From Verrucomicrobiaceae bacterium (lineage in GTDB: Bacteria; Verrucomicrobiota; Verrucomicrobiia; Verrucomicrobiales; Verrucomicrobiaceae), in NCBI GenBank assembly GCA_947471905.1, contig CANIZT010000009.1:1-32683 (forward strand): a stretch of DNA of 32,683 nt, given 5' to 3'. Below, one piece after another: positions 1,720 to 12,651 of this stretch. How positions within the stretch are numbered: the first letter of the stretch is position 1; the number at the start of each line of letters is the position of its first letter. The notes under the pieces were generated by a model. The model did not search any database and was not told where the DNA came from. It was given only the letters and a program-made list of their open reading frames with translations. Both the position numbers and the translations under genes were made by a program.

Positions 1720-2499
1720 CTATCTCATTCTCCCCACGGCCGGTCTGGCGCTTGAAACGCCGCCGAGTTGGTTGCGGAACTCATACACATCACTCCGATA
1801 TAGCGTCTCTTCATACCAAAGCGGCACGCCACCGTCGAGGAAGCCTGTGGCGATGACGAGGAGGCAGGCTGCATTCGCCGCGACGCCCAAATGAACGGCC
1901 TGTGACTTCGTGGCGTTCACCGCGCGGATGGATTCGTCGGCTCCAGAGATGGTGAGTTTGCACTTCGCGGTCCAAAAAGCATACAGCGAGCCTTTGGCAT
2001 CGGTTTTGGTCATGGCGGGGCAATGACGCGCTGCGACGTGACGGCGCTCATAGATGACCGGTTGCCCATCCGCGAGGCGAAGTCGCTCGATGTAAAGCAG
2101 CGGCTCGTTGGCAGTTAATTTGAGTGCTTGTACGATCTCGTCAGACACATCGGCGGCACTGAGCTTTTGGAAGGCGAGGACTTGCGTGCTGGGCTCCTTG
2201 CCCGCTGCGCGGGCTTTGTCGGTGAAGCTGACGAGGCGCTGCAAATCGTAGTCGAGCACGCTTTCGCGCACGAAAGTGCCCGCACCCTGGCGAAACTCGA
2301 GCAAGCCCTGAGAAACGAGGCTGCTAAGGGCTTTGTTGGCTGTGGGGCGGCTGGTCTCAAAGCGCTCGGCAATCTCGCGCTCGGTGAGGAATTGGGCACC
2401 TGGCACGAACTGACGACTGCGGAGGAGTTTCCGCAGTTTGGTGATGAGTTCCTGATGAAAAGACGCTGGCTTGCCCACGGAGTCGATCTTGCGACACAA
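1720..2499 (-). CDS. GntR-family regulator, HutC/UTRA subfamily, divergent from deoC
   Basis: A 259-residue transcription factor. Residues about 13-78 form the GntR winged helix-turn-helix (LTEREIAERFETSRPTANKA, then a wing with GLLEFRQGAGTFV). Residues about 98-240 form a UTRA ligand domain of chorismate-lyase fold, with the family's LLYIERLRLADGQPVIYERR core and a late VPLWYEETLYRSD segment. UTRA regulators usually repress a neighbouring catabolic gene until a small sugar or amino-acid derivative binds. The divergent neighbour is deoC and the gap between them carries a two-site inverted repeat, so this protein probably represses deoC and itself; the inducer may be a deoxyribose or nucleoside derivative (inference). 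The longest frame starts at TTG 2499. A GTG at 2478, seven codons in, is an alternative start that leaves the DNA-binding domain intact. Confidence 0.88.
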   Translation of the reverse strand: MCRKIDSVGKPASFHQELITKLRKLLRSRQFVPGAQFLTEREIAERFETSRPTANKALSSLVSQGLLEFRQGAGTFVRESVLDYDLQRLVSFTDKARAAGKEPSTQVLAFQKLSAADVSDEIVQALKLTANEPLLYIERLRLADGQPVIYERRHVAARHCPAMTKTDAKGSLYAFWTAKCKLTISGADESIRAVNATKSQAVHLGVAANAACLLVIATGFLDGGVPLWYEETLYRSDVYEFRNQLGGVSSARPAVGRMR

Positions 2500-2506
2500 T
2501 CCGACT

Positions 2507-2534
2507 TTGACAAGTGGCTAAGCCAATTTAGGAA
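2507..2534 (+). promoter_or_regulatory. Candidate deoC promoter with consensus -35
   Basis: A perfect -35 hexamer TTGACA lies at 2507-2512. At a 16-base spacing the best -10 is TAGGAA (2529-2534), which matches the consensus poorly, so the call is tentative. If correct, the left palindrome (2515-2525) falls between -35 and -10 and the right one (2536-2546) covers the expected transcription start: a classic repression layout. No strong Shine-Dalgarno precedes the deoC ATG at 2558. Confidence 0.3.
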
Positions 2535-2546
2535 TTGGCTTAGCCA
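2515..2546. promoter_or_regulatory. Tandem palindromic operator between gntR and deoC
   Basis: A perfect inverted repeat has 14-base arms (2515-2528 and 2533-2546) around a 4-base spacer (TAGG). Each arm itself contains an 11-bp palindrome: TGGCTAAGCCA (2515-2525) and TGGCTTAGCCA (2536-2546). Their centres, 2520 and 2541, are 21 bp apart, two helical turns, so two dimers would sit on the same DNA face. GntR-family proteins bind short palindromes of this kind. The position between divergent starts (2499 and 2558) makes binding by the adjacent GntR protein the simplest reading. Confidence 0.8.
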
Positions 2547-2557
2547 ATCTACAATCC

Positions 2558-3340
2558 ATGAAATACTCCTACTCAGACCTCGCCAAAATGATCGACCACT
2601 CGTTGCTACAGCCGACGATGACCGACAAAGATCTCCAGGAAGGTTGCGCGTTGGCCGCGAAATACGATGTGGCCTCCGTGTGCATCAAACCCTACGCGGT
2701 GAAGCAAGCTGTTCAGTGGCTGCGAGGGACAGACGTCAAAGTCGGAGCCGTGATCGGTTTCCCTCATGGCAATAGCACCACGGAATCGAAGCGTTATGAA
2801 ACGGAGCTGGCCTGTAAAGATGGCGCGGTGGAGATCGACATGGTGGTCAATCTGGGCAAGGCTCTCAGCGCTGACTGGGATTACGTCGAGGCTGATGTGA
2901 AAGCCGTCTGCGATGAAGCTCACAAGAACGGAGCCAAGGTGAAGGTCATCTTTGAAAACGATTACCTCACCAACGGAGGCGCAGGTCTGAGCAGCGACGA
3001 GTTCAAAATCAAACTCTGCCAGCTCTGCGAGCGCGCTGGAGCCGATTGGGTGAAGACGAGCACAGGCTATGGCTTCGTGAAGCAACCCGACGGCAGCTAC
3101 AACTACAAAGGTGCCACCGAACACGACCTCGCTCTTATGCGCGCCAACGTGTCAGCCAAGGTCCAAGTCAAAGCCGCCGGCGGCGTGCGCGACCTCGATG
3201 GCCTGATCAAAGTCCGCGATCTCGGCGGTTCTCGCTGTGGAGCCACAGCGACTGCCGCCATGATGGATGATTATCGCAAACGCGAAGCGGCTGGCACACT
3301 GGCTGCCGCAGGTGGGAAGATCGGTGCGGGTGGGTATTGA
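2558..3340 (+). CDS. deoC: Deoxyribose-phosphate aldolase
   Basis: A 260-residue cytoplasmic class I aldolase that splits 2-deoxyribose-5-phosphate into glyceraldehyde-3-phosphate and acetaldehyde in deoxynucleoside catabolism. The Schiff-base lysine is Lys166 in WVKTSTGYG; the proton-relay partners are Asp94 in VEIDMVVN and Lys205 in VKAAGGVRD. The N-terminal IDHSLLQP and the VGAVIGFPHG segment are also characteristic. Length is normal for the family. It starts at ATG 2558 directly after the two-site operator and diverges from the GntR regulator. No other deo genes (deoA, deoB, deoD) are nearby, so this is a single-gene unit under local control. Confidence 0.97.
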   Translation: MKYSYSDLAKMIDHSLLQPTMTDKDLQEGCALAAKYDVASVCIKPYAVKQAVQWLRGTDVKVGAVIGFPHGNSTTESKRYETELACKDGAVEIDMVVNLGKALSADWDYVEADVKAVCDEAHKNGAKVKVIFENDYLTNGGAGLSSDEFKIKLCQLCERAGADWVKTSTGYGFVKQPDGSYNYKGATEHDLALMRANVSAKVQVKAAGGVRDLDGLIKVRDLGGSRCGATATAAMMDDYRKREAAGTLAAAGGKIGAGGY

Positions 3341-3378: not shown

Positions 3379-3394
3379 CCAAGATCGATCTTGG
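3379..3394. promoter_or_regulatory. Perfect 16-bp palindrome between deoC and the next gene
   Basis: CCAAGATCGATCTTGG is fully self-complementary with no spacer. It sits 39 bases after the deoC stop and 30 bases before the preferred start of the downstream secreted protein. There is no T-run, so it is not an intrinsic terminator. Its symmetry and place suggest an operator for the downstream gene, but no cognate regulator is identifiable here. Confidence 0.35.
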
Positions 3395-8278: not shown

Positions 8279-11242
8279 ATGATGTCACCCATTCTCAATC
8301 GTATTTCGCTGGCGGTTCTCGCGGCCAGCAGCGCACACGCCGTCGATTTCAATCGTGAAGTGCGGCCGGTGCTCGCGCAGCAGTGCTTTGCTTGTCATGG
8401 CATGGATGACCACGCGCGGAAGGGCAAGCTGCGGCTGGATTTGCGTGATTCGGCTGTTGGCGCAGGGAAGTCGGGTGAGATCGCGATTGTTCCTAGCAAG
8501 CCGGAGGCGAGTGAGATCATCAAGCGACTGCTCTCCACGGATGAAGATGAGCAAATGCCGCCGCCGCATACGAAGAAGTTTGTATCAGAAAAGGACAAAG
8601 CCATCCTGAAGCAATGGATCGCCGAAGGGGCCAAGTATGAGGCGCATTGGGCTTACACGCCGCCGAAAGCCAGTGCAGACGCCAAGGCGAGTATCGATGG
8701 ATTCATTCGGCAACGACTCGCCAAAGAAGGATTGAAGCTCTCAACGGAGGCGGATCGCTACACGCTTGTTCGTCGCCTCTATCTCGATCTCATCGGCCTG
8801 CCTCCCACGCCTGTGGAGGCGGATGCCTTTGTGAATGACAAAGCGCCGGATGCATATGACAAGCTCGCGGACTCACTCCTCGCCTCCAAACAATACGGCG
8901 AGCGTTGGGCACGCCGCTGGCTCGATCTCGCGCGATACGCCGACACGAACGGTTTTGAAAAGGATCGCCCGCGTAGCATTTGGCCGTATCGCGATTGGGT
9001 GGTGAAGGCGCTGAATGATGACATGCCGTTTGATCAATTCAGCATCAAGCAGATCGCTGGCGACATGTTGCCGAAGGCCACGCCTGAGGACCTCATCGCC
9101 ACCGGATTTCATCGCAACACGATGCTCAATGAAGAAGGCGGCATCGATCCGAATGAGTATCGTTTTTACGCCATGGTGGACCGCGTCAGTGTCACCGGCA
9201 CCACGTGGATGGGCCTGACCATGAACTGCTGCCAGTGCCACACGCACAAATACGATCCCATCCTGCACACCGACTACTACAGCACCATGGCGCTGCTGAA
9301 TAACGCCAGCGAGCCGACCTATTACATCCCCACTCCTGACATCGAAGCCCAAAAGAAAACGCAGGCCGAGAAGATTGCCAAATTGGAGGTTGAATTGCCG
9401 TCTAAGTTTCCCGGTGGTGCCGCTGCGATGCAAAGCCGCCTCGCAGGCTGGATCGAGGGTGAATCGCATCGCGCTTCCAAGTGGCAAATCATTCGTCCCA
9501 CGAAGATGGCGACTACCATGCCGCATCTTGAGCAGCAGGCTGATGGCTTCATTCTCGGCAGCGGCGACATCTCGAAGAGCGATGTGTATGACTTGAGCTT
9601 CAAAGCGCCGATCAAAGGCGTCACTGCCATCAAGCTCGAAGTCGCCAGTCATCCGAGTCTGCCGAACGACGGACCTGGCCTAACGAATTACGAAGGACCA
9701 CTCGGCGGATTTTTCCTCAGCGAGCTGCAAGCCTTCCAGAAAGGTCTGCCGATCAAAATCAACCGCGCCGAAGCCACCAACGACGAGGAAGAAGACCGCA
9801 TCAGCGATGCTGCCGCCGCCAACCCAAAAGCAAAGGCCAAAGCAGCTCGGAAGCCCAAGAAAACCAACAACGTCAGCGCTGCCCTAGATACTGAAATGTC
9901 CAGTGGCTGGCAGGTGCTCGGTGGATACGGCGTGCAGCACGCAGCGGTGTTTTATTTTGAGCAGCCGATGGATCTGACGAACGGCTTCGATTTGAAGATG
10001 CTGTTTGAAAAGCACTTCGCCTGTCCGCTCGGCCACTTCCGCATCTCCGTGACCACCAGCGACCACGCCGAGGCCACTGGACATCCATCTGAGGTCGAGG
10101 AAGCACTTGCAGCAAACGATTCAACGAAGCGCGAACTATTGCTGCATCGCTTCCTCGAAACCGCGCCCGAGATGAAGCAAGCCGTGGCCCCGCTTCTAGC
10201 GATGCGCAAGAATCCACCGCGCGGCCAGCCCACGCTGGTCATGAACGAGCGACCTGCATCGAATCCACGTCCGACTCAACTTCATCATCGTGGCGAATAT
10301 CTTCAACCCAAAGAAGAAGTGCCGCCCGCCGTACCAGCCTTTCTTCCTCAACTACCAAAGGGCGCTCCAGCCAATCGACTCACCTTTGCCAAGTGGCTCT
10401 TCGCTCCCGAAAACCCGCTTACAGCACGCGTCACCGTCAATCGGCAGTGGCAGTCCTTCTTTGGTCGCGGCTTCGTGAAGTCGCTCGAAGACTTCGGCTA
10501 TCAGAGCGACCCGCCTTCCCATCCCGAACTGCTCGACTGGCTCGCCGTTCAGTTCGTGAAGCAAGGTTGGTCCATGAAGAAACTGCATCGCCTCATCGTC
10601 ACCAGCGCCACCTACAAGCAGTCCTCTCGAATCACGCCGGAACTCCTCCAGCGCGATTCTGAAAACATCCTGCTCGCTCGCGGTGCACGTTTCCGACTCG
10701 ATGCCGAAATCATCCGCGACTCCGCTTTAAAGGCCGCTGGTGTCTTGTCGCTCAAAATGGGCGGCCCTGGCGTCTATCCACCGCAGCCAGCGAGCGTGAC
10801 CTCGGAAGGAGCCTATGGCAAAATCGAGTGGAAGATCAGCGAAGGCGAAGACCACTTCCGCCGCAGCCTCTACACCTTCACCAAGCGCACCGCGCCCTTC
10901 GCCATGGCCACCACGTTTGATGCGCCGACCGGCGAATCCTGCCTCGCGAGACGCGATGTTTCCAACAGCCCCCTGCAAGCCCTCACGCTGCTCAACGATC
11001 AAATGTTCATGGAAGCCGCTCAAGCCATGGCCAAACAAGTCATGGCCGAATCCCCAACCGACGACGAGCGCCTCATCAACATCTTCCGCCGCTGCACCAC
11101 CCGCCCTGCGGCCGCCGATGAACTCGCCATGCTCAAATCCTTCCTCCAAAAACAACGCGACAAGAAACTCGAAGGCGAAGCGCTCTGGGCTGCGGTGTGC
11201 CGCGCTGCGCTAAACCTCGACGAAGCCATCACACACCCATGA
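8279..11242 (+). CDS. Planctomycete-type cytochrome c / DUF1549 / DUF1553 protein
   Basis: A 987-residue exported protein. GAGAGGG just upstream is a good ribosome site for ATG 8279; ATG 8282 is adjacent. A signal peptide (ILNRISLAVLAASSAHA) is followed by a planctomycete cytochrome C domain with heme motif CFACH at 36-40 and a possible Met ligand in QMPPP near 93. The DUF1549 domain spans about 140-345 and holds a second C-x-x-C-H (CCQCH, in the conserved context CHTHKYDPI). A central beta-sandwich-like region contains a Lys/Ala-rich linker at about 520-545. DUF1553 occupies the C-terminus from about 695 (FAKWLFAPENPLTARVTVNR). These proteins are hugely expanded in Planctomycetes and Verrucomicrobia and are nearly always paired with DUF1501, as here. 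A periplasmic redox role in polysaccharide use is suspected; no activity is established. Confidence 0.93.
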   Translation: MMSPILNRISLAVLAASSAHAVDFNREVRPVLAQQCFACHGMDDHARKGKLRLDLRDSAVGAGKSGEIAIVPSKPEASEIIKRLLSTDEDEQMPPPHTKKFVSEKDKAILKQWIAEGAKYEAHWAYTPPKASADAKASIDGFIRQRLAKEGLKLSTEADRYTLVRRLYLDLIGLPPTPVEADAFVNDKAPDAYDKLADSLLASKQYGERWARRWLDLARYADTNGFEKDRPRSIWPYRDWVVKALNDDMPFDQFSIKQIAGDMLPKATPEDLIATGFHRNTMLNEEGGIDPNEYRFYAMVDRVSVTGTTWMGLTMNCCQCHTHKYDPILHTDYYSTMALLNNASEPTYYIPTPDIEAQKKTQAEKIAKLEVELPSKFPGGAAAMQSRLAGWIEGESHRASKWQIIRPTKMATTMPHLEQQADGFILGSGDISKSDVYDLSFKAPIKGVTAIKLEVASHPSLPNDGPGLTNYEGPLGGFFLSELQAFQKGLPIKINRAEATNDEEEDRISDAAAANPKAKAKAARKPKKTNNVSAALDTEMSSGWQVLGGYGVQHAAVFYFEQPMDLTNGFDLKMLFEKHFACPLGHFRISVTTSDHAEATGHPSEVEEALAANDSTKRELLLHRFLETAPEMKQAVAPLLAMRKNPPRGQPTLVMNERPASNPRPTQLHHRGEYLQPKEEVPPAVPAFLPQLPKGAPANRLTFAKWLFAPENPLTARVTVNRQWQSFFGRGFVKSLEDFGYQSDPPSHPELLDWLAVQFVKQGWSMKKLHRLIVTSATYKQSSRITPELLQRDSENILLARGARFRLDAEIIRDSALKAAGVLSLKMGGPGVYPPQPASVTSEGAYGKIEWKISEGEDHFRRSLYTFTKRTAPFAMATTFDAPTGESCLARRDVSNSPLQALTLLNDQMFMEAAQAMAKQVMAESPTDDERLINIFRRCTTRPAAADELAMLKSFLQKQRDKKLEGEALWAAVCRAALNLDEAITHP

Positions 11243-12651
11243 ACACCTCCAACATCACCCGCCGCCATTTCTTCCAAGACTGCGGCATTGGCACTGGCAA
11301 GATCGCTTTGGCGTCATTGCTGGCGGAATCGGCTTATGGATCGAGCAAGAGCCCGAATGTGGCTGCGGCTCCGCATTTGCAGCCGAAGGCGAAGGCCGTG
11401 ATCCACATGTTCATGGCGGGTGCGCCGTCACAGCTTGAGCTTTTCGACAACAAACCGCTGCTGACCAAATTTGAGGGCAAGCCGATCCCGCCTTCTATCA
11501 TCGGTGGGCAGCGTTATGCGTTCATCCGGCCGGATGCGGCGGTTTTGGGGCCGCGCTTCAAGTTTGCTAAGCATGGGCAGAGTGGCTTGGAGCTATCTGA
11601 GATGCTGCCGCATTTGGCGACGGTGGTGGATGACATTGCCATCATCAAATCCTGCCGCACCACGCAGTTCAATCATGCGCCGGCGCAAATTTTCATGAAC
11701 ACGGGCTTCTCACAGCCTGGCCGCCCGAGCATGGGCTCGTGGATCACTTATGGTCTCGGCTCGGAGTCGCGTGATCTGCCGTCCTTTGTCGTGATGAGCA
11801 CCGGCAGCGGCATCAGTGGCGGTGCGGCGTGTTGGGGCAGCGGTTTCCTGCCGAGCATCTATTCCGGCACACGATTCCGTAACACGGGCGACCCCATTTT
11901 GAATGTCAGCACGCCGCAAGGGATCGAAGCGGGCACGCAACGCGATACCATTGATCTCATCAACGCGATGAACCATCGCAGACTCAAACTGGATGGCGAC
12001 AGCGAGACGGCGACGCGAATCGCTAACTACGAGATGGCCTACCGCCTGCAAAGCTCCGCGCCTGAGCTGATGGACCTCACCAGCGAGGACAAGGCGACGC
12101 TGGAGATGTATGGCTGCGATCCGAAGGTGCCTTCCTTTGCCCGCGCCTGTTTGCTGGCTCGGCGCATGGTTGAGCGCGGTGTCCGCTTCATCAATATCTA
12201 CAACGAAGGCTGGGATGCCCACAGCGACGTAGCTGGCAATGTGAAGAAAAACTGCGGCATCACGGATCAAGCCAGTGCCGCACTCATCAAGGATCTCAAA
12301 CAACGCGGCATGCTCGATGATACGCTCGTCGTCTGGGGTGGTGAGTTTGGTCGCACACCAATGGTCGAAGCCAGTGTGTCACTGGGCCGCAGCATGGGTC
12401 GTGATCATCATCCGCAGGCCTTCAGCATGTGGATGGCCGGTGGCGGCATCAAAGGTGGCGTCACCGTCGGTGCCACGGATGACATGGGCTTCAACATCAT
12501 CGAAGACGAAGTCCACGTGCCCGACCTTCAAGCCACCATCCTGCACTGCCTAGGCATCGATCATGAGCACCTGACGTTCCGCAGCGCTGGATTGGATTTC
12601 AAACTCACCGGTGTGGAGCCGTGCAAGGTGGTGAAGAAGATTTTGGCATGA
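11239..12651 (+). CDS. Tat-exported DUF1501 (sulfatase-superfamily-like) protein
   Basis: A 470-residue protein whose ATG 11239 overlaps the stop of the cytochrome/DUF1553 gene by four bases (ATGA), implying translational coupling. A twin-arginine signal (TRRHFFQDCGIGTGKIALASLL) is followed by DUF1501 landmarks: VIHMFMAGAPSQLELFDNKP, FNHAPAQIFMNTG, a RPSMGSWITYGLG block, VVWGGEFGRTPM and GRDHHPQAFSMWMAGGGIKGG. The fold belongs to the alkaline-phosphatase/sulfatase superfamily, but no formylglycine cysteine motif is present, so it is not a classical sulfatase. It is the standard partner of the upstream protein. Its biochemical role is unknown. Its stop overlaps the next gene by four bases. Confidence 0.93.
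   Translation: MNTSNITRRHFFQDCGIGTGKIALASLLAESAYGSSKSPNVAAAPHLQPKAKAVIHMFMAGAPSQLELFDNKPLLTKFEGKPIPPSIIGGQRYAFIRPDAAVLGPRFKFAKHGQSGLELSEMLPHLATVVDDIAIIKSCRTTQFNHAPAQIFMNTGFSQPGRPSMGSWITYGLGSESRDLPSFVVMSTGSGISGGAACWGSGFLPSIYSGTRFRNTGDPILNVSTPQGIEAGTQRDTIDLINAMNHRRLKLDGDSETATRIANYEMAYRLQSSAPELMDLTSEDKATLEMYGCDPKVPSFARACLLARRMVERGVRFINIYNEGWDAHSDVAGNVKKNCGITDQASAALIKDLKQRGMLDDTLVVWGGEFGRTPMVEASVSLGRSMGRDHHPQAFSMWMAGGGIKGGVTVGATDDMGFNIIEDEVHVPDLQATILHCLGIDHEHLTFRSAGLDFKLTGVEPCKVVKKILA

Follow-up and report, generated by a model that had tools for sequence, protein, structure and literature searches.

How is deoC controlled when the gene divergent from it encodes not DeoR, CytR or a similar regulator, which likewise act on deoC, but a GntR protein with a UTRA domain? 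This question is raised by a 32,683-nucleotide stretch of DNA (hereafter the window) from a Verrucomicrobiaceae bacterium. The window is contig C9 of a 4,494,546-base assembly (∼4.49 Mb, completeness 78%), whose closest named relatives, judged by gntR, are Verrucomicrobiaceae and Prosthecobacter MAGs. The gap between gntR and deoC holds two putative operators, for which the coordinates and sequence given in the original prediction proved exact: O1 (TGGCTAAGCCA), an odd 11-bp palindrome at 2515–2525 (centre 2520), and O2 (TGGCTTAGCCA), an 11-bp palindrome at 2536–2546 (centre 2541) that is nested in a 15-bp palindrome (ATTGGCTTAGCCAAT, 2534–2548). Both 11-bp palindromes are perfect, and their centres, claimed to lie two helical turns apart, measured exactly 21 bp apart. 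The exact 11-mer has two copies in the entire assembly, namely O1 and O2. From composition alone, ∼2.1 single copies would be expected by chance, but only ∼1e-6 pairs at 21-bp spacing. When the 78%-complete assembly was searched for a further exact 11-bp site as an extra target, none was found elsewhere.

The gene assignments agree with the predicted arrangement, a UTRA-type GntR gene divergent to deoC. The regulator gene (gntR, minus strand, 1720–2478) encodes a GntR/HutC-type protein with an N-terminal GntR winged helix-turn-helix (PF00392; 55.1 bits, cut-off 27) and a C-terminal UTRA domain (PF07702; 123.5 bits, cut-off 23.8). The product of deoC (plus strand, 2558–3340, ATG at 2558) belongs to the deoxyribose-phosphate aldolase family (TIGR00126; 191.3 bits, cut-off 117.3). 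The longest gntR ORF starts at TTG 2499; most orthologues start with GTG or ATG at or near 2478, and GTG 2478 is the likely start. A domain search (E ≤ 0.001) of the regulator returned GntR, UTRA and a weak generic HTH, with no DeoR, LacI or SorC domain, which sets the locus apart from the DeoR/CytR arrangement, as had been claimed. Among the HutC-subfamily equivalogs (HutC, PhnF, TreR, LSA1692 and others), no curated NCBIfam cut-off was reached; the best score was 133.7 bits for NF041547 (cut-off 275), and HutC scored 114.4 (cut-off 220).

The nearest solved relatives of the regulator are NagR/YvoA of Bacillus subtilis (2wv0/4u0v, E ∼2.5e-35) and DasR of Streptomyces coelicolor (9i0v, E 2.5e-28), with which it shares the operator-reading arginines and the phosphate-binding residues. 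In the accessible part of PMC4333415, Arg38 and Arg48 of NagR are described as reading GG of its operator. Their counterparts here, R34 and R44, were invariant in all 20 of the regulators that we aligned from the 29 in the family. Similarly, the six DasR phosphate contacts, as given in the accessible part of PMC4918961, are all identical here and invariant in 20/20. The ring side is different: Arg221, Glu232 and Val234 of DasR correspond to Ala, Trp and Glu in the window's protein, and Tyr98 to Phe. With changes at three positions that contact the sugar ring, GlcNAc-6-phosphate is probably not the ligand, and a different phosphorylated sugar is the natural guess.

To follow the sites among relatives, we searched 68 genomes of the family with the regulator protein; 27 of them contain gntR, at 29 places in total. 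deoC lies divergently beside gntR in 25 of the 29 loci. Both palindromes are exact at 21 bp in 23 of these 25 loci, and in 25 of all 29; the sites and their phasing are thus conserved upstream of orthologous gntR–deoC pairs, as the original prediction implied. Taken singly, O1 is exact in 27/29 loci and O2 in 26/29. The exceptions are an altered O2 (L024), a degenerate O2 (L026), a lost second site (L029) and one changed base in O1 (L030), and the 21-bp distance is kept in every family locus that retains two sites. Allowing up to 3 mismatches, the 32-bp pattern of both sites was found at 31 places in 27/68 family genomes, compared to one place in each of 3/68 for a reversed-pattern control. 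With up to 2 mismatches, it was found at 28 places in 26/239 genomes of the order, all of them Verrucomicrobiaceae (the window's own family), compared to 2/239 genomes for the control. A gntR orthologue adjoins 27 of these 28 places, which supports the predicted pairing of site and GntR regulator; the remaining place is a deoC gene without gntR, in genome G037. Two 3-mismatch matches in G016 and one in G017 were treated as chance.

For column counts, we aligned 30 rows (the 29 gntR loci and the G037 deoC), anchored on TTTGACAA[G/T]TGGCTWAGCC. Flanks are variable in the aligned rows, while the sites and the box that precedes them are constant. Among the 25 rows with both sites exact, a script counted 16 in which the two centre bases are complementary and 9 in which they are the same. 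The window's sites are also arms of a perfect 14-bp inverted repeat (2515–2528/2533–2546, with a 4-nt middle), the sole one detected in 2400–2650. This repeat, which the original prediction had described, is indeed present, but it is intact in just 13 of the 30 rows. On the evidence of the alignment, the conserved unit is two odd 11-bp palindromes at a fixed distance and not the long repeat.

The gene deoC occurs in 52/68 family genomes and gntR in 27/68. As 26/68 genomes have deoC but no gntR match, the circuit is optional; gntR without deoC was seen once (G058). We checked the 300 bases upstream of seven deoC genes that are >83% identical and have no adjacent gntR (G026, at 84%, was left out). 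Six of the seven are without the sites, and the one in G037 retains the operator with one mismatch. In two genomes (G046 and G031), the gene directly upstream of deoC is the hydrolase gene that neighbours gntR in the window, and regulator and operator are therefore taken to be present or absent together. Upstream of the G009 deoC, TTTTGACAAG is retained and the palindromes are absent.

Several loci stand out individually. In G037, the deoC with the operator pair and no adjacent gntR is on contig C603 (L110), and a partial gntR that retains the O1 side alone is on contig C586 (L109); a rearrangement inside an operator is possible. In L024 (G052), deoC is 93% identical to the window's, and its gntR just 64%, which hints at exchange of regulator or deoC between loci, the deoC tree being poorly resolved. 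In G041 and G040, a second deoC (L175, L176) is ∼60% identical to that of the window and has no adjacent gntR; both genomes also carry an operator-linked deoC copy.

Adjoining O1 is a conserved box (TTTGACAAG, 2506–2514), which precedes O1 in 29/29 gntR loci when extracts are taken unanchored; in the 30-row alignment, invariance of box and motif is by construction, as the rows are anchored there. Immediately before O1, 28 of 29 loci have CTTTGACAAG, and L029 has TTTTGACAAG instead. The box contains TTGACA (2507–2512, plus strand), the -35 for deoC, and TTGTCA (2513–2508, minus strand), a possible -35 for gntR, and by this reading of its letters TTGWCAA may serve as -35 on both strands. The putative -10 of deoC, TAGGAA (2529–2534, plus strand), comes 16 bp after TTGACA. 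Most relatives have TAKAAA at this position (T 23, A 26, A 23, A 25 and A 25 for the fixed letters, in 30 rows), and the window's own hexamer is weak. The putative -10 of gntR, CAAGAT (2486–2491, minus strand), comes 16 bp after TTGTCA; such hexamers are CAARRT-like, and A at the second position and T at the sixth are conserved in 27/30 rows each. A consensus promoter scanner found no sigma-70 promoter at its threshold in 2440–2600. Given this and the weak TAGGAA, we treat the -10 elements as inferred.

With these elements, O1 falls within the spacer of the deoC promoter, between the -35 and the putative -10, and O2 falls just past the -10, over the presumed start. This is the classical place for repression. 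The O2 centre is 17 bp from the deoC start codon, and the O1 centre is 42 bp from the likely gntR start (2478), so that the pair lies off-centre between the two genes. Suvorova et al., in the accessible part of that paper, give a criterion by which a pair nearer deoC than gntR favours control of deoC alone. Joint control of gntR and deoC, which had been proposed at the outset, is plausible because the TTGWCAA box can act as a -35 on both strands.

We extended the analysis to deeper relatives with profile searches of 286 genomes of the class (E ≤ 1e-45) and 387 of the phylum (E ≤ 1e-28), which gave 8 and 10 places, respectively, beyond the window's own. Five of the 18 (L165–L169, ∼30% identical) form a separate group in which neither site type is present. 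At all 13 others, TGG-N5-CCA occurs within ∼140 bp upstream of the gntR match. It is flanked as GTGG-N5-CCAC in 12, the exception being L112, where the pair is of the window's type. At one of the 13 there is a TGG-N6-CCA as well, farther off, and four places other than L112 have two sites 90–109 bp apart. HutC sites are mostly GT-N4-AC, according to the accessible part of PMC4494728; this core, typical of most but not all HutC sites, is absent from the window, where the pattern is TGG-N5-CCA with GC for GT. Half-sites are six nucleotides apart in the dre-sites of NagR and DasR, compared to five here and between the GG/CC half-sites of Escherichia coli FadR (PMC4333415, accessible part). Because TGG-N5-CCA was found at 13/13 places, against six nucleotides for NagR and five for FadR, this comparison suggests that the clade of UTRA proteins goes with FadR-like half-site spacing. 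The effector domain of FadR is of another kind, whereas the protein here carries UTRA. The exact 21-bp pair was seen among the deeper relatives at L112 alone (G413, another family of the class), and L112 falls inside the family's clade, which suggests transfer.

The gene neighbourhoods of these deeper relatives bear on what deoC does. Of the 13, 7 have a deoC homologue on the same stretch (L121, L124, L126, L163, L164, L170 and L172), and 10 have a gfo homologue close to gntR if a fragment in L112/L120 is included; the stretches are of unequal length, and several of them stop at contig ends. Gene order is gntR-gfo-rok-iolE-deoC in L170 and gntR-gfo-iolE-deoC in L172. G066 (L173) has gfo-iolE-rok-deoC, with gntR absent from the part examined. 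Within the family, an IolE-like gene is present in 24/27 gntR-bearing genomes versus 13/41 without gntR (Fisher p ∼4e-6, kinship ignored); the window's own assembly has none, as far as 78% completeness tells. We conclude from this context that deoC provides one step in a broader sugar pathway. Because deoC belongs to a gntR-gfo-(rok)-iolE-deoC cluster in deeper relatives, the isolated deoC of the window appears to be what is left of a larger regulon for a sugar pathway, and its isolation is probably secondary. In G413, a single ORF (L120, 1997–3262) fuses the start of the gfo homologue with the end of the iolE homologue and with the rok kinase, which would fit an internal deletion of most of gfo and iolE just behind the operator.

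In the family, the operator faces genes other than deoC in 3/29 loci. An MMSDH-type aldehyde dehydrogenase directly faces the regulator in L028; gluconokinase and then MMSDH do so in L030, and Gfo/Idh, IolE-like and ROK genes, followed by MMSDH, in L031. In each of the three, a Zn-dehydrogenase comes next. After it, L106 and L107 have class II aldolase and uronate-dehydrogenase-like genes, and the L108 stretch ends before them. L029 is a fourth locus without deoC, and its operator is truncated. MMSDH of this kind (E ≤ 1e-150) occurs in 3/68 family genomes, the same three that have those regulators. The regulators of other targets are not one clade: L026, whose target is deoC, groups with L028 as its sister (starred branch), and the target has therefore changed at least twice. 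Two genomes, G056 and G052, each have two copies, one of the deoC type and one of the other type, whose operators are nearly identical. The description of the target as an isolated deoC must therefore be amended, given the three loci with other targets and the clustered deoC of deeper relatives.

The reading we favour, with a probability of about 0.78, is that the pair is a two-site repression operator for the adjacent UTRA-type GntR protein; very probably, it is the regulator's seat for switching the enzyme off. Binding, cooperativity, direction of control, the -10 elements, the start sites and the ligand are all postulates of this model. Without inducer, one repressor dimer would occupy O1, between the -35 and the putative -10 of deoC, and a second would occupy O2, just after the -10 and over the presumed start. 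Spaced by 21 bp, the two dimers would be neighbours on the same helical face, would probably cooperate and would together block RNA polymerase. Repressor on O1 may also damp gntR (autoregulation), since O1 abuts the TTGWCAA box, readable as a -35 both ways. The repressor would be released when its UTRA domain binds a phosphorylated sugar, most likely one that the deoC-containing pathway consumes or forms; we propose relief by such a sugar because all six DasR phosphate contacts are kept. Counted against the model are the absence of a scanner promoter, the poor TAGGAA, the degenerate, altered or lost O2 in L026, L024 and L029, and the G037 operator, which faces deoC without an adjacent gntR.

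The two sites could instead be independent single-dimer operators, with O2 repressing deoC, O1 repressing gntR or being spare, and no cooperation between them. Deeper relatives with one site, or with two sites 90–109 bp apart, fit this arrangement, and operon-specific double sites are the second class in Suvorova et al. (PMC4494728, accessible part). We nevertheless consider it unlikely, as the 21 bp are constant while the distance from O2 to deoC ranges from 3 nt (L018) to 23 nt (L019), and as O1 lies inside the deoC promoter spacer and outside the presumed gntR core. Some GntR proteins are activators, and this, along with the operator kept at one deoC without adjacent gntR (G037), would accord with activation of deoC by the regulator, or with sites that bind another protein. 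Such a role is improbable, given that the sites overlap the promoter core instead of lying upstream of the -35 and are almost confined to this regulator gene's side (27/28 places). An RNA element (leader hairpin, attenuator or terminator), to which the perfect 14-bp repeat with its 4-nt loop lends itself in this genome, was rejected as highly improbable, since the pairing is intact in 13/30 rows versus 25 for both 11-bp palindromes, a scan found no terminator-like site, and neither transcript would include both arms under the proposed promoters.

A two-site repression operator of this layout is, as an arrangement, known, double-site GntR divergons being a published class. Co-operative double-site TF-gene divergons with a constant distance were already defined by Suvorova et al. 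2015 (PMC4494728, in the part accessible). Like the HutC- and FadR-subfamily divergons described there, the locus has a TF gene divergent to its target, two palindromes at a constant distance (here 21 bp) and presumed co-operation. It differs in that the pair is off-centre towards deoC, the half-site spacing is unlike that of most HutC sites, and Verrucomicrobiota are absent from the taxa in Table 2 of that paper, as far as the table is shown. What is new is the TGG-N5-CCA spacing, the same operator before other operons, and the conserved gntR-gfo-(rok)-iolE-deoC cluster. A literature search of incomplete coverage returned no paper describing this operator, deoC control by a UTRA regulator or a gfo-rok-iolE-deoC cluster, and in the literature searched there was no UTRA-regulator operator of such kind in Verrucomicrobiota. 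With this analysis, a UTRA regulator of this phylum gains a precisely defined operator and a candidate regulon. HutC-type proteins with FadR-like spacing across a clade, as suggested here, bear on the prediction of operators from sequence.

The pathway context is more interesting than the operator itself. Tentatively, and at somewhat less than even odds, the loci can be read jointly as a sugar-catabolic regulon of Verrucomicrobiota not described so far. Its UTRA regulator, acting through FadR-like sites of 11 bp, would control the conserved gfo-rok-iolE-deoC pathway. The DERA-family aldolase of this pathway would cleave a phosphorylated sugar made by the Gfo/Idh oxidoreductase, the IolE-like isomerase and the ROK kinase; the substrate of the aldolase would not be nucleoside-derived deoxyribose-5-phosphate. 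In Verrucomicrobiaceae, the regulator and its operator would have been re-used as a unit either before deoC or before a malonate-semialdehyde-dehydrogenase/class II aldolase operon. The operator would have changed very little, so that two paralogous regulators in one genome would share one DNA code. The 'deoC' of a gfo-rok-iolE-deoC set may not serve nucleoside salvage, contrary to what automatic annotation implies.

As for the enzyme itself, KTSTG, EIDMVVN and VKAAGGVR of the window's DeoC align with solved DERAs; these motifs hold the Schiff-base lysine and its partner residues. Two candidate marks of a special enzyme were dropped: an altered GASS phosphate motif, because GASA is found in the solved DERA 3ngj, and a 10-residue insert, because it is also present in Verrucomicrobiota DeoCs without a gntR link. 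About 40 bp past deoC lies a 16-bp perfect palindrome (CCAAGATCGATCTTGG, 3379–3394), followed within a few bases by a T-run; it may be a terminator. Farther along the window (8279–12651), a PSCyt1-PSCyt2-PSD1 protein (8279–11242) is followed by a DUF1501 protein (11197–12651), a gene pair common in Planctomycetes and Verrucomicrobia.
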